Of a DNA stretch of 36,895 bases, positions 21,344 to 28,673 are shown one piece after another. The DNA is from Candidatus Uhrbacteria bacterium (GTDB lineage Bacteria; Patescibacteriota; Patescibacteriia; 2-12-FULL-60-25). Under the pieces are notes generated by a model that worked only from the letters and a program-made list of their open reading frames with translations, made no database searches and was not told the DNA's origin. Made by a program: the position numbers and the translations under genes. Numbering within the stretch: the first letter of the stretch is position 1; every line of letters begins with the position of its first letter. Where the stretch lies: positions 1 to 36,895 of the forward strand of contig JAUSEV010000044.1 in assembly GCA_030649995.1 (NCBI GenBank), written 5' to 3'.

Positions 21344-22534
21344 TTATTTAATAATTTTCGTGACCACACCGGCACCGACCGTTTTTCCTCCCTCGCGAAT
21401 GGCAAAACGCATCTTTTCTTCCATAGCAACCGCCGTAATCAACGTGACTTCCATTTTGACGGTATCGCCCGGTTGCACCATGGCGACCGCTTCCGGAAGT
21501 TTGACTTCACCGGTTACGTCTGTGGTTCGAATATAGAATTGCGGTTTATATCCCGTGATAAACGGCTTGTGACGGCCGCCTTCCTCTTTGGTCAAGGCAT
21601 ACACTTCCGCTTCGAACTGGGTATGAGGCGTAATCGTACCCGGTTTGGCCAAGACCATGCCGCGTTCCACTTCGTCCTTTTTTGTGCCGCGCAAGAGGAT
21701 GCCAGCATTGTCACCGGCCATGCCGGAATCCAGTTGTTTATTGAACATTTCAATGCCCGTGACAACCGTTTTACGCGTCTCACCCAAACCGACGATTTCC
21801 ACTTCTTCATTGATCTTCACTTGACCGCGTTCAATACGACCGGTAACGACGGTGCCGCGACCTTCGATAGAAAACACGTCTTCAATCGGCATGAGAAGCG
21901 GCTTGTCCATTTCACGCACCGGCTCCGGAATAAATTCATCGCAAGCCTTGATGAGATCCAACACCGGTTTGGAGGCGGCTTCATCTTTTGGATTCTGCAA
22001 CGCCTTTAACGCTGAACCGCGAATAATCGGGGTTTTGTCGCCGTCAAATTCATACTTCTTCAAAAGATCGCGGATTTCTTGTTCCACCAAATCGATGAGT
22101 TCCGCGTCTTCCACCATGTCAACCTTGTTCAAAAAAACAACGACAGCCGGCACACCAACTTGGCGCGCGAGCAAAATGTGTTCGCGTGTTTGCGGCATCG
22201 GACCGTCTGTGGCGGACACGACCAAAATCGCGCCATCCATTTGAGCCGCGCCGGTGATCATGTTCTTAATATAATCCGCGTGACCTGGACAATCCACGTG
22301 GGCATAGTGACGCTTCTCGGATTCGTACTCGGTGTGAGCCGTGGCAATCGTAATACCACGAGACTTTGACTCGGGAGCTTTGTCCAGGTCATCAACACCC
22401 TTGGTTTGAGCCTGCATCCCGTGAGCCGCGAGGACAGACAGGATGGCTGCCGTGAGCGTCGTTTTTCCATGGTCCACGTGACCGATGGTGCCGATGTTCA
22501 CATGCGGTTTTGTTCGCTGAAATTTATCCGCCAT
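21344..22534 (-). CDS. tuf: Elongation factor Tu, 396 aa
   Basis: EF-Tu brings aminoacyl-tRNA to the ribosome. The GTPase motifs are complete: [10 protein letters not shown] (about 19-28), [12 protein letters not shown] with the DxxG, NKVD, and SALKAL. Domains 2 and 3 follow ([43 protein letters not shown], and [10 protein letters not shown]). Length is standard. It has its own promoter (22617-22645) because the str operon is split by an island between fusA and this gene. No SD is seen. Confidence 0.97.
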
Positions 22535-22535
22535 A

Positions 22536-22600
22536 CGTGAAAGAATTAGGAATTAAGAAGAAAGAATAAAGAATAATGATTGATTAAGAGAGACCTTGCC
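22536..22600 (-). repeat. AGAAT/TTAAT low-complexity array in the tuf leader
   Basis: AGAATTAGGAATTAAGAAGAAAGAATAAAGAATAATGATTGATTAAG is built from near repeats of GAATNA. A matching pyrimidine-rich stretch (22670-22700) lies on the other side of the promoter and could pair with it. Confidence 0.45.
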
Positions 22601-22616
22601 TCGCAAGAGTGTCGAA

Positions 22617-22645
22617 ATGATAACAGAGCCTAAAAAAACATGCAA
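22617..22645 (-). promoter_or_regulatory. Promoter of tuf
   Basis: On the minus strand TTGCAT (22645-22640) and TATCAT (22622-22617) are 17 bases apart. The start would be near 22610, leaving a leader of about 75 bases. Confidence 0.65.
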
Positions 22646-22707
22646 GCCCTGCCCGATATTCCCCATTTCTTTATTCCTTATTCTTGATTCTTGCTTCTTT
22701 TTTTGGC

Positions 22708-23064
22708 TCAATCTAGCGTTTCATCAACCGGTTCAAGATAAAAACGCTCTTCCCTTGTGAGCCCTTCATCGGGCAAAGAATCGGCGGTAAATAATTCATC
22801 CACATCCTGTTTTTGATCAATAGGTAAAACCTTTTGATCCTCCATGACCGACTCTGTTTTGATCTCATCAACCACGCCCTGCCACAACTCCTCCTTTGAA
22901 ACCCTGTTTTCCTGCTTTATTTTTGCTGTATTTTTTTGTCCTTCTGCCAGCCGTTCATATTCTTCCAACGGCAAAATCGCCATCGGTTCACGACCGCCAA
23001 TATCCGTAACGATTACGGGCAATCCTCGTTGCCGCGCCAGCTCCAAAATGCGTTGCCATGACAT
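22708..23064 (-). CDS. Antitoxin-like small protein (Phd/YefM-like N-terminus), 118 aa
   Basis: The N-terminus MSWQRILELARQRGLPVIVT then DIGGREPMAILPLEEYERL recalls the 'R-PVVI-G-AVLLSLEEYERL' core of Phd/YefM-type antitoxins, and similar small genes are common in CPR genomes. The rest is acidic and Lys-rich (EELWQGVVDEIKTES and so on), likely disordered. No toxin-like gene is adjacent on this strand. I chose the ATG at 23064; the longer frame upstream crosses a divergent promoter. Function unknown, antitoxin role is inference. Confidence 0.5.
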   Translation of the reverse strand: MSWQRILELARQRGLPVIVTDIGGREPMAILPLEEYERLAEGQKNTAKIKQENRVSKEELWQGVVDEIKTESVMEDQKVLPIDQKQDVDELFTADSLPDEGLTREERFYLEPVDETLD

Positions 23065-23109
23065 AAGTGACCACATCACAACACAGAATGACAAAAAAGC
23101 GCAAGAGGG

Positions 23110-23139
23110 TTGACGAAATCGACAAAAAAATGATAAATA
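23110..23139 (+). promoter_or_regulatory. Promoter of the 119-aa gene
   Basis: TTGACG (23110-23115) is followed after 18 bases by TAAATA (23134-23139), with a TG before it as in an extended -10. An SD word AAGGAGAG (about 23157-23164) precedes the GTG start. Confidence 0.6.
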
Positions 23140-23167
23140 ATATCCGTCATCCTCCAAGGAGAGAACG

Positions 23168-23527
23168 GTGCCAAAAAAACGAGCCATCGTAACAAGAAGC
23201 CGCAAAGTCAGAGTTTCGACAAGAAGGGTCACGCCAAATCTGACAGAGAAAGATTGGCGACTGATCCGAGAAGTTTCTTTGCCCAAAAAGTACGCGCCGC
23301 TTGTGAGTCGACTGATCGAAACTCACAACCAACCCATGTCGACGTGGGAGGCGTTCCGACTGTTCAAAGACTATGAAAAATTCTGGACCGGCCAGCTCGC
23401 TTCTCGGTTGGCGATCTTGAATCGCTTCATGAGTGAGGCAGGCCGTCCTTACAGACTCTTCTTCGTTCTGCGTGGCAAAATGATCAGCGAAAATCAGGTT
23501 CAGTTCTTCCGAGTCGTCATCCGATAA
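23168..23527 (+). CDS. Unknown 119-aa protein with strong SD
   Basis: The start is GTG, four bases after an AAGGAGAG SD. The N-terminus is very basic (MPKKRAIVTRSRKVRVSTRR), then a helical, aromatic-rich domain with TEKDWRLIREVSL, STWEAFRLFKDYEKFW and RLAILNRFMSEAG, ending RPYRLFFVLRGKMISE. I do not recognise a family; the shape suggests a small nucleic-acid-binding protein. It has its own promoter and terminator, runs opposite to its neighbours, and uses the strong-SD style seen in the methyltransferase and sigma4/alpha-CTD genes, unlike the core genes. Confidence 0.65.
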   Translation: MPKKRAIVTRSRKVRVSTRRVTPNLTEKDWRLIREVSLPKKYAPLVSRLIETHNQPMSTWEAFRLFKDYEKFWTGQLASRLAILNRFMSEAGRPYRLFFVLRGKMISENQVQFFRVVIR

Positions 23528-23544
23528 GCACGTTTCTCCCAAAA

Positions 23545-23579
23545 GCCCGCAACCGATTCCTCGGCCGCGGGCATTTTTT
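23545..23579 (+). terminator. Terminator of the 119-aa gene
   Basis: GCCCGC (23545-23550) pairs with GCGGGC (23567-23572), with an inner CCGA/TCGG stem, followed by a T run. It lies 17 bases past the stop. Confidence 0.8.
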
Positions 23580-23618
23580 ATTTTTGACATTTTACATTTC
23601 AAGTTTCAGAATCACCCA

Positions 23619-23852
23619 TCAAACAAACGCGATCGCCTTGCGTACGGCGACTTCTGGATTTTTATGGAGAAGCCGATTTGCTTGAGATAAAAACTTACTG
23701 GCTTCCAATATCTCAATCAATACCGGCGTGTCATTCTTGGTAAAATGCACGACCACATTCCCCAGCTCTTTTGCGGAATAAATTTTTTTATCCGTCAGCT
23801 CCCATATCAAAACATCCGCTTCCGGCTCGTAACTGATTTTGGGATTTGTCAT
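23619..23852 (-). CDS. DUF2283-type protein, 77 aa, putative antitoxin
   Basis: ISYEPEADVLIWELTDKKIY then NVVVHFTKNDTPVLIEILEA is the DUF2283 pattern ('Y-D-D-L-I-L…V-D-G-V-GIEIL-AS'). Family members often lie beside DUF4258 genes in toxin-antitoxin-like pairs. Here it starts one base after the DUF4258 stop (TAAAATG), or overlaps it by 14 bases if the upstream Met (23867) is used. Its role in neutralising the partner is inference. Confidence 0.7.
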   Translation of the reverse strand: MTNPKISYEPEADVLIWELTDKKIYSAKELGNVVVHFTKNDTPVLIEILEASKFLSQANRLLHKNPEVAVRKAIAFV

Positions 23853-23853
23853 T

Positions 23854-24111
23854 TTATTTTTTTTCATATTGTTTTCTGCGACCTGGATAAAACGTGATGA
23901 CGGTCATCACATTCCCCTCTTGTCTATACACTACACGTAAAACACGATGTGCGTCAAAACCGATTTGCGCAATAAGCAATGGCAAATGGGAATAGTCAAT
24001 AAAATCCGGCTTCTCCAACGCTACCGTCACCTGCGTTGCCGTTATAGAAACACCGTGCCTTCGTAAGAGACTGAATTTTTCCTGCGCATGTTTTGTAAAT
24101 CGAACAATCAT
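23854..24111 (-). CDS. DUF4258-type protein, 85 aa, putative toxin
   Basis: MIVRFTKHAQEKFSLLRRHG begins the 'H-xx-R-xx-RGI' pattern of DUF4258, a small RelE-like family; IGFDAHRVLRVVYRQEGNVM then VITFYPGRRKQYEKK forms the usual strand end with Tyr and Lys. These are proposed to act as mRNA-targeting toxins in some genomes; that is not shown here. I chose the ATG at 24111 since the longer frame would overlap the divergent cassette promoter. Confidence 0.65.
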   Translation of the reverse strand: MIVRFTKHAQEKFSLLRRHGVSITATQVTVALEKPDFIDYSHLPLLIAQIGFDAHRVLRVVYRQEGNVMTVITFYPGRRKQYEKK

Positions 24112-24182
24112 CGAAGGAATTAAACCATGCGTGGATACCGATGAGAAGACGGCTCCGTATGGCATGCAGTAACAGGGCGGTC

Positions 24183-24258
24183 TTGACATAGCCTTGCGCA
24201 TAATATGGGGGGGGTAGAATGGGGGTAAGATTCTTAAATCCATCGAAATGCTATGTCA
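24183..24258 (+). promoter_or_regulatory. Cassette 1 upstream module with poly-G tract
   Basis: TTGACA (24183-24188), then TTGCGCATA, then eight G (24207-24214), TAGAAT (24215-24220), GGGGG, AAGATT and the sequence ATCCATCGAAATGCTATG ending in the start codon. It matches the cassette 2 module (25970-26045) almost base for base, although the proteins that follow are unrelated. TTGACA to TAGAAT is 26 bases, too long for a standard promoter. Confidence 0.65.
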
Positions 24259-24981
24259 AAAGAAAAATATCAGCCGAGCACCGAAGAAATGAAAAAGGCG
24301 GAAGAAACCATGACGGAGGAACAAAAACGAGATTCAGGATATCGTGAAATCAACGAGCAATGGCGCAACGAAATAATGACAGCATTGAAGCGCGATCCGA
24401 GTCTCATCGTTGATTTGATCAATGATCTCCAATCGGATCATTATGCAAACTTTCGATTTCAAAAATATCAGAAATCCATGGGCAAAGTTCCAAAAAGCCA
24501 AAAAGATGTTACCGAGGCTTGGTTCAATGACTTTGTCAGGCGCTTACGAGATCACGACACAAAGGGCATGAACGTTTTTACAACACAAAATTTAGTGCGT
24601 GAGGTAAAACCCGATAGCATGGAAAGAATGATTTCTGCATTAAATTTGGATACGGTTTATTTAACAAGCCATGTCACTCATACAGATACAGAGGGGTCTA
24701 CCGAACATTTGAGGCTCTGGAAAAATCCTCCAAACAGCCAAAGGGGCTATCCGGATTGGGGAACAAGTGGACAAAGCGGGATCATGGAGACTTGGGGTTT
24801 AGAGCACGAAGGCGCGATTCATGATAGCTATTTGGAGGCGGAGAGGATGATTCGCCATATCACAGAGGGACCGGATGCCGCATATAAACTGGATAAAGAA
24901 GATTTTTTTAGGATTTCTCCTGGAGATGTAGCCGTGTTTCGTCAGAAGGGCTATAAACAATACAAATTGATCAAAAAATAG
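24253..24981 (+). CDS. Cassette 1 protein, 242 aa, unknown function
   Basis: It starts MSKEKYQPSTEEMKK. Residues 1-90 are charged and helical, and the middle includes EAWFNDFVRRLRDHDTKG and NVFTTQNLVREVKPDSMERM, and the C-terminal part has LRLWKNPPNSQRGYPDWGTS, MIRHITEGPDAAYKLDKEDF and GDVAVFRQKGYKQYKLIKK. I do not recognise a family. Both its upstream and downstream flanks are shared with the gene at 26038-26382. No signal peptide or membrane segment is seen, so it is likely cytoplasmic. Confidence 0.65.
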   Translation: MSKEKYQPSTEEMKKAEETMTEEQKRDSGYREINEQWRNEIMTALKRDPSLIVDLINDLQSDHYANFRFQKYQKSMGKVPKSQKDVTEAWFNDFVRRLRDHDTKGMNVFTTQNLVREVKPDSMERMISALNLDTVYLTSHVTHTDTEGSTEHLRLWKNPPNSQRGYPDWGTSGQSGIMETWGLEHEGAIHDSYLEAERMIRHITEGPDAAYKLDKEDFFRISPGDVAVFRQKGYKQYKLIKK

Positions 24982-24999
24982 GCACCTAAAAATACCAGC

Positions 25000-25080
25000 A
25001 AAAAACCGCCCCATCATCGGGACGGTTTTTTTCTCTTTTCTCTCCAGCGAAGGCGGCGGATAAAAAATACCGACCAAGGA
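25000..25080 (+). terminator. Cassette 1 terminator and conserved 3' flank
   Basis: AAAAAACCGCCCC (from 25000) pairs with CGGGACGGTTTTTT, with one mismatch, as an intrinsic terminator (25000-25032). The next 45 bases (TCTCTCCAGCGAAGGCGG… to ACCGACCAAGGA) match the region after the cassette 2 terminator with small changes. The hairpin lacks a partner in the neighbouring BRO gene. Confidence 0.7.
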
Positions 25081-25088
25081 CGCCTCTT

Positions 25089-25922
25089 TTATTTTAATTT
25101 TTTCAACGTTTTCTTTTTTTGAAAAAAATTCGCAGACGTGATAACCGGCGTTCCCGTGCGTGATTCGATCTGTTTTCGTGCGCTGCCGGCAATCCGGCCG
25201 CCTTGTTTGGCCGCGCGGCGATTTTCCGTAAAACCATTCACATCTTGCTTGCGTGCGATTTCCGTTGTGGATGCTTCGGCGAGCATGTTCAAAACCAATT
25301 CCAAATTGCTCATGTGGTCACGTAAATTTTGAGATTTCAAATTTTTTAATTTTTTGTAGTCACGCGTCTTCATTCCGGCCCAAGCCTCGGTGATGTCATC
25401 CGTCAAGATTGCGTATTCCGGTTTTTGAACGCCGCGATTTTTCCATTCGTTCGTCAACTCGTGACGCGCCTCGATCGTCCGCATACGTTGCGCAATCCAT
25501 TCCTCCGAATAACCTTTTTTCCGATAATATTCTCCCGCGCGTTGAATAGCGATCTCCGGATCTTCAATTTCCTTTAACCGTTCATAACCAACCTTAGCTA
25601 ACCATTGTTTGAAGGGTTCGGCTTTCGATGATGGAATGGATTGGATGAGACGAAGAAGCGTTTCCGTGTCCGTACAGTCCGTGGCATATTTTTTGCCATC
25701 TTGGGCCATAAATTTCAGTTGTACGATTTTTTCGTACAACTGAAAACCCTCTTCATGTAGCTTTCTTTTCAGGTCAGTCCAATAACGTTTTGGAATCGTA
25801 CTTCCCGTCAAAATCTGAACAATATCGATAATACTAAAGAACCAAAGTTCCTTTTGCTGATTCCATACGCGCCGGACCTCTTTTTGTTCAAACAAAACGA
25901 TAGAGGGTTGTTTTTTGATCAT
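25089..25922 (-). CDS. Full-length BRO-N family protein, 277 aa
   Basis: The BRO-N DNA-binding domain spans about residues 5-115 (KELWFFSIIDIVQILTGS, RYWTDLKRKL, VQLKFMAQDGKKYATDC, TETLLRLIQSIPSSKAEPFK). The C-terminal half has the companion pattern KGYSEEWIAQRMRTIEARHE, LTNEWKNRGVQ and a final region with ENRRAAKQGGRIAGSARKQI common in CPR BRO-type proteins. Such proteins are thought to bind nucleic acid; their function in CPR is unknown. The truncated gene at 367-732 is its paralogue. Codons 60-70 carry a perfect 14-bp inverted repeat. It is divergent from cassette 2, with a 15-bp palindrome between. Confidence 0.85.
   Translation of the reverse strand: MIKKQPSIVLFEQKEVRRVWNQQKELWFFSIIDIVQILTGSTIPKRYWTDLKRKLHEEGFQLYEKIVQLKFMAQDGKKYATDCTDTETLLRLIQSIPSSKAEPFKQWLAKVGYERLKEIEDPEIAIQRAGEYYRKKGYSEEWIAQRMRTIEARHELTNEWKNRGVQKPEYAILTDDITEAWAGMKTRDYKKLKNLKSQNLRDHMSNLELVLNMLAEASTTEIARKQDVNGFTENRRAAKQGGRIAGSARKQIESRTGTPVITSANFFQKKKTLKKLK
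25713..25745. repeat. 14-bp inverted repeat inside the BRO-N coding region
   Basis: TTTCAGTTGTACGA (25713-25726) and TCGTACAACTGAAA (25732-25745), with five T between, are perfect complements. The centre falls on codon 65 of the BRO-N gene. Inside the truncated paralogue, an 11-bp inverted repeat with a different sequence (548-572) is centred on codon 65 as well. Confidence 0.85.
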
Positions 25923-25948
25923 GCATTAAGCTTACACCCTTTCAACAA

Positions 25949-25963
25949 AAGATGCCGCATCTT
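25949..25963. promoter_or_regulatory. 15-bp palindrome between BRO-N and cassette 2
   Basis: AAGATGCCGCATCTT is a perfect palindrome around one central base, placed in the divergent spacer between the BRO-N start (25922) and the cassette 2 promoter module. It is a candidate operator for either gene; an autoregulating BRO-N protein is one possibility. Confidence 0.5.
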
Positions 25964-25969
25964 AAGTCC

Positions 25970-26045
25970 TTGACACCCACTTGCATACCGTGTGGGGGGG
26001 TAGAATGGGGGTAAGATTATTAATCCATCGAAATGCTATGTCAAA
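25970..26045 (+). promoter_or_regulatory. Cassette 2 upstream module with poly-G tract
   Basis: TTGACA (25970-25975), TTGCATA (25981-25987), seven G (25994-26000), TAGAAT (26001-26006), GGGGG, AAGATT and CATCGAAATGCTATG lead into the gene. It matches cassette 1 apart from the G-run length and a few bases. TTGACA to TAGAAT is 25 bases. Confidence 0.65.
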
Positions 26046-26382
26046 AACGCCAGAGCAACCGCCAATCGCGAAAAAAGAAAAAGAGACAATAAACGAACCA
26101 GAGAAGATATTCCTACGCGTTAAAAACGGCGGCGTTTATGAAATCTCAAAGGATGGGTTGATCTTCACGCTAGGACTGATAGACGTATCGGAAATTGGCA
26201 AACCGAAACATCCTTTAACAGGCATTGAAATGGAGGACGCGCGTCGCAAGATTCTTGAAACAAGAGATGCTGCTCGTGAGCTTATGGAACACCGACAAAA
26301 ACGATTAGATGAGGCAAGGGATCACCTAAAGGAGACCGAAACGGCGCTTGAGTGGGTGTCGCGATCCGTGTCGAAAAAATAA
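26038..26382 (+). CDS. Cassette 2 protein, 114 aa, unknown function
   Basis: It starts MSKTPEQPPIAKKEKET; the ATG at 26038 is preferred over an upstream TTG because it lies at the same place in the conserved module as the cassette 1 start. The middle IFLRVKNGGVYEISKDGLIF then TLGLIDVSEIGKPKHPLTG is a small beta domain, and the second half is a helix rich in Arg and Glu (RRKILETRDAARELMEHRQK and so on). I do not recognise a family. Apart from MSK it has no clear likeness to cassette 1. Confidence 0.6.
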   Translation: MSKTPEQPPIAKKEKETINEPEKIFLRVKNGGVYEISKDGLIFTLGLIDVSEIGKPKHPLTGIEMEDARRKILETRDAARELMEHRQKRLDEARDHLKETETALEWVSRSVSKK

Positions 26383-26400
26383 CTTTCACCCTCGGTTTCC

Positions 26401-26485
26401 AAAAGCCGCCCCATCACGGGACGGCTTTTTTATTTTTTCCTTCTTCTTCTCTCCAGGAAGGGCGGGGAGAGAAAATCGACCGAGG
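26401..26485 (+). terminator. Cassette 2 terminator and conserved 3' flank
   Basis: AAAAGCCGCCCC (26401) pairs with GGGACGGCTTTT, with one mismatch, as an intrinsic terminator to 26430. The following bases (TCTCTCCAGGAAGGGCGG… GACCGAGGA) match the cassette 1 3' flank. Confidence 0.7.
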
Positions 26486-26582
26486 ATGTTTGAGCGACCA
26501 AAATGTTTCACGAACGTGAAACGCGAAAAATGAAAAGACGCGAGTTCCACAGGGCGTATTTTTTCTCCCCGACCTTCCGTTT

Positions 26583-28673
26583 TTATTTCTTTCCTTTTCC
26601 CTCGATGATGGTTTGCGCCACATTATTCGGCACTTCGCCGTAGTGACCAAATTCCATGGTGTAACTGGCGCGGCCTTGCGTCATGGAGCGAATCGTTGTG
26701 GCATAGCCGAACATTTCCGAGAGTGGCACAAGGGCGCTCACGATGCGCGCGCCGGCGCGCTCTCCCATGTCTTGGATTTGTCCGCGTTTGGAATTTAAGT
26801 CACCGATCACATCGCCCATAAAATTTTCCGGAGTGACCACTTCCACTTTCATGATCGGTTCGAGAAGATACATCCCCGCTTTTTTACACGCATCTTGAAA
26901 CGCGAACGAGCCGGCGATTTTGAAAGCCGCTTCGGACGAGTCCACCTCGTGATAACTTCCGTCGGTGAGGGTAATTTTGACATCCAACATAGGATAACCT
27001 GCCAACACGCCGCGTTGCATCGCTTCTTGAATTCCTTTGTTGATGGGCTGAATGTACTCGCGTGGAATCACACCGCCCTTAATCTCGTCAACGAACTCAT
27101 ACCCTTTACCACGTTCCGCCGGTTCAGCCGTGATAACGCAGTGACCATACTGCCCGCGACCGCCGGATTGACGGATGTACTTCCCCTCCCCTTCCGCCAA
27201 TTTACGCATCGCCTCTTTATACGCCACTTGCGGCTTACCGACGTTTGCGTCCACCTTAAATTCGCGTTTCATACGATCGACGATAATTTCCAGATGCAAT
27301 TCACCCATGCCGCTAATAATCGTTTGCAAGGTTTCTTCATCCGTGCGAATACGGAACGACGGGTCTTCCTCGGCCAACTTTTGCAACGCCACACCCATCT
27401 TTTCTTGATCCGCTTTTGTTTTTGGTTCAATGGCAACGGAAATGACTGGTTCCGGAATCACAATATTTTCGAGCATCAGAGGTCGACGCTCGTCATATAA
27501 CGTATCACCGGTGAATGTGGCTTTGAGACCGACCGCGGCGGCGATTTCTCCGGCATACACATCGCTCACATCCTCACGTTCATTGGCGTGCATACGGACG
27601 ATGCGGCTCACCCGTTCTTTGTCGCCGGTTTTAGCATTGATAACGTACGATCCCGAAGACAGATGGCCGGAATACACGCGAAAAAAAATCAGCTTGCCCA
27701 CAAACGGATCAGACATGACTTTAAAAGCCAAAGCAGCAAACGGCTCATCATCGGACGGATGCAACTCAACCACTTCCTCCTCGTGATCGATCGCGTGCGC
27801 CACGGTGGGTGGAATGTCGAGAGGAGATGGAAGATATTCCACGATCGCATCCAACAAAAATTGCACCCCTTTATTTTTGAGAGCTGATCCGCACAAGATG
27901 GGGTTGATCGCGCCGGCAATGGTTGCCTTGCGCAAACCGTTTTTCAACTCTTCGATCGTGAGTTCTTCGCCGGCGAGAAATTTTTCCATGAGCACCTCAT
28001 CATTTTCCGCGATCGCTTCCACGAGCTTGACGCGGTAGGCTTTGGCTTTTTCCAGCAGATCGGCGGGAACCTCCACTTCCTCAATCTCCGTTCCAAGATC
28101 GCCTTTATCATCTTTATACATTTCCGCTTTCATGCGAATCAGATCGATAATTCCGATAAAATGTTCTTCCGCGCCGATGGGCAACTGAACGGGATACGCG
28201 TGCTTGGTTAAACGGTTGTGAATCGAGTCAACATCTTTGTAAAAATCCGCGCCCATGCGATCGAGTTTGTTGATAAAACAGATGCGCGGCACGTTGTATT
28301 TGTCCGCTTGACGCCACACCGTTTCCGATTGCGGTTCCACGCCGGCGACCCCGTCGAACACGGTGACCGCGCCATCGAGCACGCGCAAACTGCGTTGCAC
28401 TTCGATGGTAAAGTCGATGTGACCGGGAGTATCAATCAAGTTAAGACGACAACCTTTCCAAAAACAGGTTGTTGCCGCGGCCGTGATGGTAATGCCGCGC
28501 TCGCGTTCCTGCTCCATCCAGTCCATCGTCGCCTCACCTTCGTGCACCTCGCCGATCTTGTGCTTGCGTCCGGTATAAAATAACACACGCTCGGAAACGG
28601 TAGTTTTTCCAGCGTCGATATGGGCGATGATGCCGAAGTTGCGGGTGTCTTTGAGAGAGTATTCACGGGGCAT
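26583..28673 (-). CDS. fusA: Elongation factor G, 696 aa
   Basis: EF-G drives translocation on the ribosome. GTPase motifs are [34 protein letters not shown], and NKLDRMGAD, and all later domains are present ([32 protein letters not shown] of domain IV, and the tip GGVIPREYI). Length is standard. It follows rpsG across a CTAGGCN array and ends the first half of the split str operon. No SD is seen. Confidence 0.97.

Follow-up and report, generated by a model that had tools for sequence, protein, structure and literature searches.

How do two unrelated genes come to stand between nearly the same flanks? The question is raised by a 36,895-nucleotide stretch of DNA (hereafter the window) from a Patescibacteria (CPR) genome of 1.08 Mb in 50 contigs. 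The interval between fusA and tuf holds two small genes, p1 and p2, with a minus-strand BRO-N gene between both (Table 1). The original prediction proposed gene cassettes, in which a payload is exchanged inside fixed 5′ and 3′ flanks, or else a single gene family that had diverged quickly and kept only its expression signals.

Table 1. Features of the p1–p2 locus, in window coordinates.
Feature	Position	Strand	Remarks
p1	24253..24981	+	242 aa; no Pfam family above cut-off
p1 N-terminal motif	24253-24345	+	residues 1-31
p2	26038..26382	+	114 aa orphan; C-terminal half charged, coiled-coil-like
BRO-N / DinD-like gene	25089..25922	-	divergent from p2; Pfam E 3e-8, phrog_15286 E 2e-106
5′ module of p1	24183..24261	+	TTGACA (24183-24188), G-run, TAGAAT, 5′ UTR, ATGTCAAAA
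5′ module of p2	25970..26046	+	TTGACA (25970-25975), G-run, TAGAAT, 5′ UTR, ATGTCAAAA
G8 tract, p1 promoter spacer	24207..24214	+	
G7 tract, p2 promoter spacer	25994..26000	+	
Putative -10 box TAGAAT of p1	24215..24220	+	assigned by its position and by 50 similar sites (mean spacer 17)
Putative -10 box TAGAAT of p2	26001..26006	+	
Terminator-like hairpin after p1	25001..25034	+	
Terminator-like hairpin after p2	26401..26429	+	
Tail after p1	25038..25080	+	resembles 26447-26486
Tail after p2	26447..26486	+	resembles 25038-25080

The flanks are far more alike than shuffled sequence. From TTGACA to the third codon the 5′ modules align locally with a score of 97, the best of 2000 shuffles scoring 29, and the 3′ modules reach 71 where shuffles give at most 27 (E 3e-9 within the window). 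The 5′ flanks had been described as near-identical, which is right from the G-run through ATGTCAAAA (96% identity over 52-53 nt), but most of the 16-18 nt after the shared TTGACA differ. The match that had been claimed for the 3′ flanks is also real, but weaker than at the 5′ side, at 73% identity with gaps. The 3′ module consists of two parts, a hairpin terminator and a tail. The tail (GGAAGG.CGGGGAGA.AAAAT) may be a small dispersed repeat; part of it recurs in inverted orientation at 26556-26578. When up to three mismatches are allowed, GGGGGTAGAATGGGGGTAAGAT matches twice in the genome, in none of 56 relatives and in none of 100 shuffles of the window. The whole 36.9-kb window contains exactly two G/C runs of at least six, which are the p1 and p2 tracts, and in both genes a second G-run follows TAGAAT.

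The proteins encoded between these flanks are a different matter. Both the dissimilarity of the two coding sequences and the reverse BRO-N gene between the copies had been noted beforehand, and both were borne out, the latter by the Pfam and PHROG matches in Table 1. Pairwise BLASTP finds no alignment of p1 with p2 beyond a 39-residue N-terminal match (E 0.11); judged by their sequences, the two are non-homologous over their length. Neither has an evident signal peptide, and p2 has no relatives in 144 genomes or IMG/VR. The predicted structure of p1 has a mean pLDDT of 39, and is therefore unusable for a fold search. A viral origin was rejected, as relatives of neither protein are found in IMG/VR; the sole poly-G promoter match in that collection (L130) has no convincing gene downstream.

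The fusA–tuf interval (window 22534-26583) is a variable cargo site, in which relatives have other genes, among them ABC transporters. The cargo adjoins a small conserved gene (MSWQRI..., about 22708-23064, minus strand). Upstream of p1, the minus strand carries at 23619-24112 a DUF2283 gene (Pfam E 1e-9) beside a DUF4258-like gene (E 0.2), and the two are possibly a toxin-antitoxin-like pair.

The start of p1 belongs to a wider group of proteins. Its motif, roughly ExYxPSxEExxxAExxMTxEQxxxSxxRE and hereafter the N-motif, occurs at the N-terminus, or close to it, of CPR proteins that are otherwise unlike, in 10 of 381 genomes of the class and 12 of 380 of the phylum (E<=0.01, with the weakest matches doubtful). 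The relatives keep the MSK start at the protein level. The parts joined to the motif include a nucleotidyltransferase-like domain (a weak Pfam match), a CYTH domain (E 1e-6) and a methyltransferase-like part that was recognised by eye and is unconfirmed by Pfam; most have no Pfam family. Two such proteins, L006 from Uhrbacteria and L061 from Moraniibacteriota, are alike beyond the motif (30% over 110 aa, E 9e-11), and p1 shows weak similarity to L006 there (E 0.014). One candidate, L008 in genome G083, was discarded as a chance p1 match within an endonuclease-like ORF. In at least five CPR genomes (L046, L047, L048, L049 and L064) the N-motif is joined to a conserved nucleotidyltransferase-like protein of about 340 aa, and these fusions are without spacer repeats. 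The suggestion of one fast-diverged family fits p1 and its relatives, which keep the N-motif while their C-terminal parts are unlike, but does not clearly extend to p2, in which the N-motif, if present at all, has decayed (HMM E 0.003 in a set of 67 payload ORFs).

What many of these genes have in common lies in front of them. The promoter spacers of N-motif genes hold poly-G in p1 (G8), L006 (G9), L057 (G6), L061 (G12) and L067 (G8), TAC repeats in L068 and L072, and AG repeats in L070. Of 26 N-motif genes, 8 have a strict repeat upstream, versus 4 of 228 other genes in the same loci (Fisher P 1.5e-6). Three of the four repeat-bearing controls are the partner gene at L068, p2, and the BRO gene, whose promoter region is also that of p2; about two thirds of N-motif genes are without such a spacer repeat. 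In 318 kb of related loci picked regardless of G-runs, five of the six distinct runs of at least seven Gs directly precede the TANNNT of p1, p2 or N-motif genes.

These promoters were then sought with patterns of differing breadth. A narrow flank pattern, TTGACAN{18,32}GGGGGTANNATGG, has only three matches in 115 genomes, namely p1, p2 and a p1-like gene of a genome of the same genus (G001). A broad pattern, TTGACN{6,21}G7+TANNNT, finds 52 distinct sites, spread over 35 of the 381 genomes of the class, compared with one in the reversed control; the strict form of the site is present in only about 9% of class genomes. The optimal spacer for sigma-70 promoters is about 17 nt. The distance from -35 to -10 averages 17.0 nt (sd 2.2) over 49 of the 51 sites measured, the outliers being p1 and p2, and this mean arises although the pattern permitted much longer gaps. 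In 55 genomes of another class, TTGAC(TAC)4 or more gives 11 sites with 4 to 18 TAC units, and its control gives none. Matches at L032 and L093 fall inside fusA and were set aside, as was L089, an hrcA-like promoter with G6.

Payloads were taken mechanically as the ORFs downstream, so that a few are spurious. They number 67 and form about 48 clusters, of which the largest two consist of a clade of reverse transcriptases and of the N-motif genes. Seven proteins, from payloads or N-motif genes, were compared with Pfam and match no family. A search with the two flanks alone had been put forward as the way to recognise cassettes; the 5′ signal by itself does return many unrelated payloads. Promoters with a repeat in the spacer recur before unrelated genes across the Patescibacteria.

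The reverse transcriptases are solitary and carry an LGNLTSQ motif. Their promoter, TTGAC...G-TAACAT with 8-11 Gs in the spacer, is found at L077-L084 (most of them), L096, L098, L099, L102, L144, L145 and L178, often only 6-13 nt before the ATG, i.e. near-leaderless. When ten loci of 4-8 kb, seven of them with a reverse transcriptase, were compared with themselves, no template or variable repeats appeared nearby, and for this reason we do not call them DGRs. Elsewhere, two (TAC)n promoters in different families (L131 and L140) precede related products with one N-terminal membrane segment; these proteins are 75% identical over the first 57 aa and their remainders differ.

The arrangement in the window has independent replicas. 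In L068, from a second CPR class, two unrelated genes at a distance of 1.2 kb enclose a gene in reverse orientation, a layout like that in the window. Their promoters and 5′ UTRs have about 110 bp in common, and identity ends at the ATG. The two promoter copies differ by two TAC units; by count, 7 units place TACTAT at a spacer of 17 nt and 9 units at 23. Their 3′ sides are unlike, and the promoter therefore appears to be the travelling unit. Genome G373 (L169) has an array of five poly-G promoters before five unrelated genes in 6 kb, with the block TGCGGATAACTTTCATTGACTT in three promoters and nearly so in a fourth, and a sixth promoter without an intact G-run; no 3′ side is common to its cassettes. 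Fixed flanks with an exchanged payload, as originally predicted, thus generalise to the unrelated payloads, the L068 pair and the five-member array, but a cassette made of both a 5′ and a 3′ flank is not general, because the L068 pair has no common 3′ flank. The fixed element that matters is a promoter whose spacer holds a slippable repeat; the repeat and its meaning had been overlooked.

There are also signs that the repeats change in length. Tract lengths lie between 6 and 12, with the total spacer centred on 17. Paralogous copies with their flanks kept have tracts of different lengths, G9 and G11 in one genome (G023) and G9 and G10 in another (G008). In G146 two contig ends overlap by 171 nt and differ solely by one inserted G (G9 versus G10). 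The overlap resembles a single locus of which the assembly has kept two tract lengths, and it could also be a homopolymer error or a paralog. Six poly-G sites, from five loci, lie within 250 nt of a contig end, compared with 1.3 expected. The G146 overlap and this excess fit variation within populations; they may also reflect homopolymer error, repeated modules or a paralog.

We consider it probable (about 0.74) that these are slipped-strand, phase-variable promoter modules standing before exchangeable small genes, the switching and the expression being deduced from sequence. Each gene would be a small expression cassette, with a sigma-70-type promoter and a slippable simple repeat in its spacer; in p1 and p2 the repeat would be the G-tract just before TAGAAT. 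Slipped-strand replication would add or remove repeat units, shifting the distance between -35 and -10 in or out of its optimum near 17 nt, so that, we propose, the gene would be high or low in different cells. Local duplication or recombination would copy the module, which would in this way come to stand before unrelated small genes, and p1 and p2 would share one such module. That a change in length alters transcription, and that p1 and p2 themselves switch, is what we infer from these patterns. The spacing in the window itself counts against this reading, as do the many N-motif genes that lack a spacer repeat and the low share of class genomes with a strict poly-G site. TTGACA lies 26 nt (p1) or 25 nt (p2) from TAGAAT, compared with 13-21 nt at other sites, and weaker -35 candidates stand closer, TTGCGC at 15 nt in p1 and TTGCAT at 14 nt in p2. 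Given the long distance, this conserved CTTG element may be the working -35 instead, in which case both promoters may be two to three Gs below the optimum.

Other explanations cover part of the evidence. It is unlikely that a whole gene was duplicated locally with its promoter and terminator, its coding part then being replaced or diverging very fast, in which case the poly-G promoter would just be the ancestral one and would imply no switching. The likeness of both flanks (96% at the 5′ side, 73% at the 3′ side), the weak match of p2 to the N-motif model and the occurrence of the exact module only twice in the genome speak for such a history, but total divergence of the coding part beside a 96% identical 5′ UTR is impossible without replacement or conversion, and the L068 pair shares its 5′ side only. 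A duplication also leaves unexplained both the differing kinds of repeat at the same spacer position elsewhere and the spacer mean of 17. The strong conservation of poly-G right before the -10 box in one reverse transcriptase clade, over several genera, and the second G-run after TAGAAT in p1 and p2 would also suit a fixed element, i.e. a binding site or structure for a regulator or special sigma factor, with no slippery switch. This we regard as improbable, since relatives of the same gene family have TAC and AG repeats in that place, the tract varies from 6 to 12 around a total spacer nonetheless centred on 17, and a sister promoter at L169 has a degraded G-run.

Two further accounts look away from the spacer. 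In one of them the shared block is a divergent minus-strand promoter, and ATGTCAAAA is kept because its complement is the -35 TTGACA of the upstream genes. There is a divergent minus-strand gene upstream of both copies, and a promoter scan reports, on the minus strand, TTGACA-17-AATAAT (11/12) from 26044 and TTGACA-18-AAGAAT (10/12) from 24259; promoter-like sites are, however, no more numerous in total than in shuffles (20 vs 18.2), the N-motif relatives keep MSK as protein, and L057 (ATGTCGATG) is without the box, all of which makes this account highly improbable. Differing payloads between similar flanks, and arrays of them, also recall site-specific cassettes, of the integron or another kind, whose flanks would hold recombination sites. 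What is conserved, though, is a promoter; no cassette recombination machinery was noticed, the repeats listed for the window include neither a candidate attC site nor an inverted-repeat recombination site at the promoter's ends, and the 3′ sides are not common in the replicas (L068 and L169). We rate this the least credible of all.

If slippage of the spacer repeat is indeed at work, the data suggest that small genes in these bacteria may be switched on and off at random. Proteins of the p1 and p2 type are perhaps variable interaction or effector proteins, some with a common N-terminal tag. The genomes of Patescibacteria are very small, and many members of the group live on other microbes. A bolder and quite tentative idea, which we think somewhat doubtful as it stands, is a widespread contingency system of the Patescibacteria: repeat-switched promoter modules would move among unrelated small orphan genes, many of them N-tagged (for export or a shared partner?), and populations would express a random subset for interactions with hosts or phages. 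Should the promoters switch, a repeat-bearing promoter would be a ready index of the genes that are varied from cell to cell, which are mostly orphans beyond the reach of homology annotation. Tract variation could account for some contig breaks in MAGs, and switching is testable at once with existing reads.

Parts of this arrangement have counterparts in known systems. One is the Vlp system of Mycoplasma hyorhinis, cited in PMC11868660. It combines a conserved promoter region and 5′ end with variable 3′ parts and a homopolymer, poly-A, in the promoter. Vlp genes, however, encode homologous lipoproteins, whereas p1 and p2 lack homology over their length, and neither shows an evident signal peptide. 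Unrelated payloads within the same flanks, the mark of cassettes, are found in p1/p2, the L068 pair and the L169 array. Homopolymer length has been proposed as a general regulator of expression in prokaryotes (PMC2831843); the abstract of that work concerns tracts within coding genes, while here the tract is in the core promoter.

The mechanism class is already known from porA of Neisseria meningitidis and tp0126 of Treponema pallidum, where the length of a poly-G tract (about 7-11) between -35 and -10 sets the spacer around 17 nt and expression is best near that value (PMC7864442). A repeat between -35 and -10 is likewise present in p1, p2 and many relatives. Those systems control surface proteins of pathogens, one gene at a time, unlike the present case, in which one module precedes unrelated orphans that are small and mostly look non-secreted, relatives have TAC or AG repeats in place of poly-G, and switching is predicted. 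No report of promoter phase variation in Patescibacteria was found in the open literature, most subscription papers being outside this coverage. One promoter module over unrelated genes, with interchangeable types of repeat, appears to be new in the Patescibacteria.
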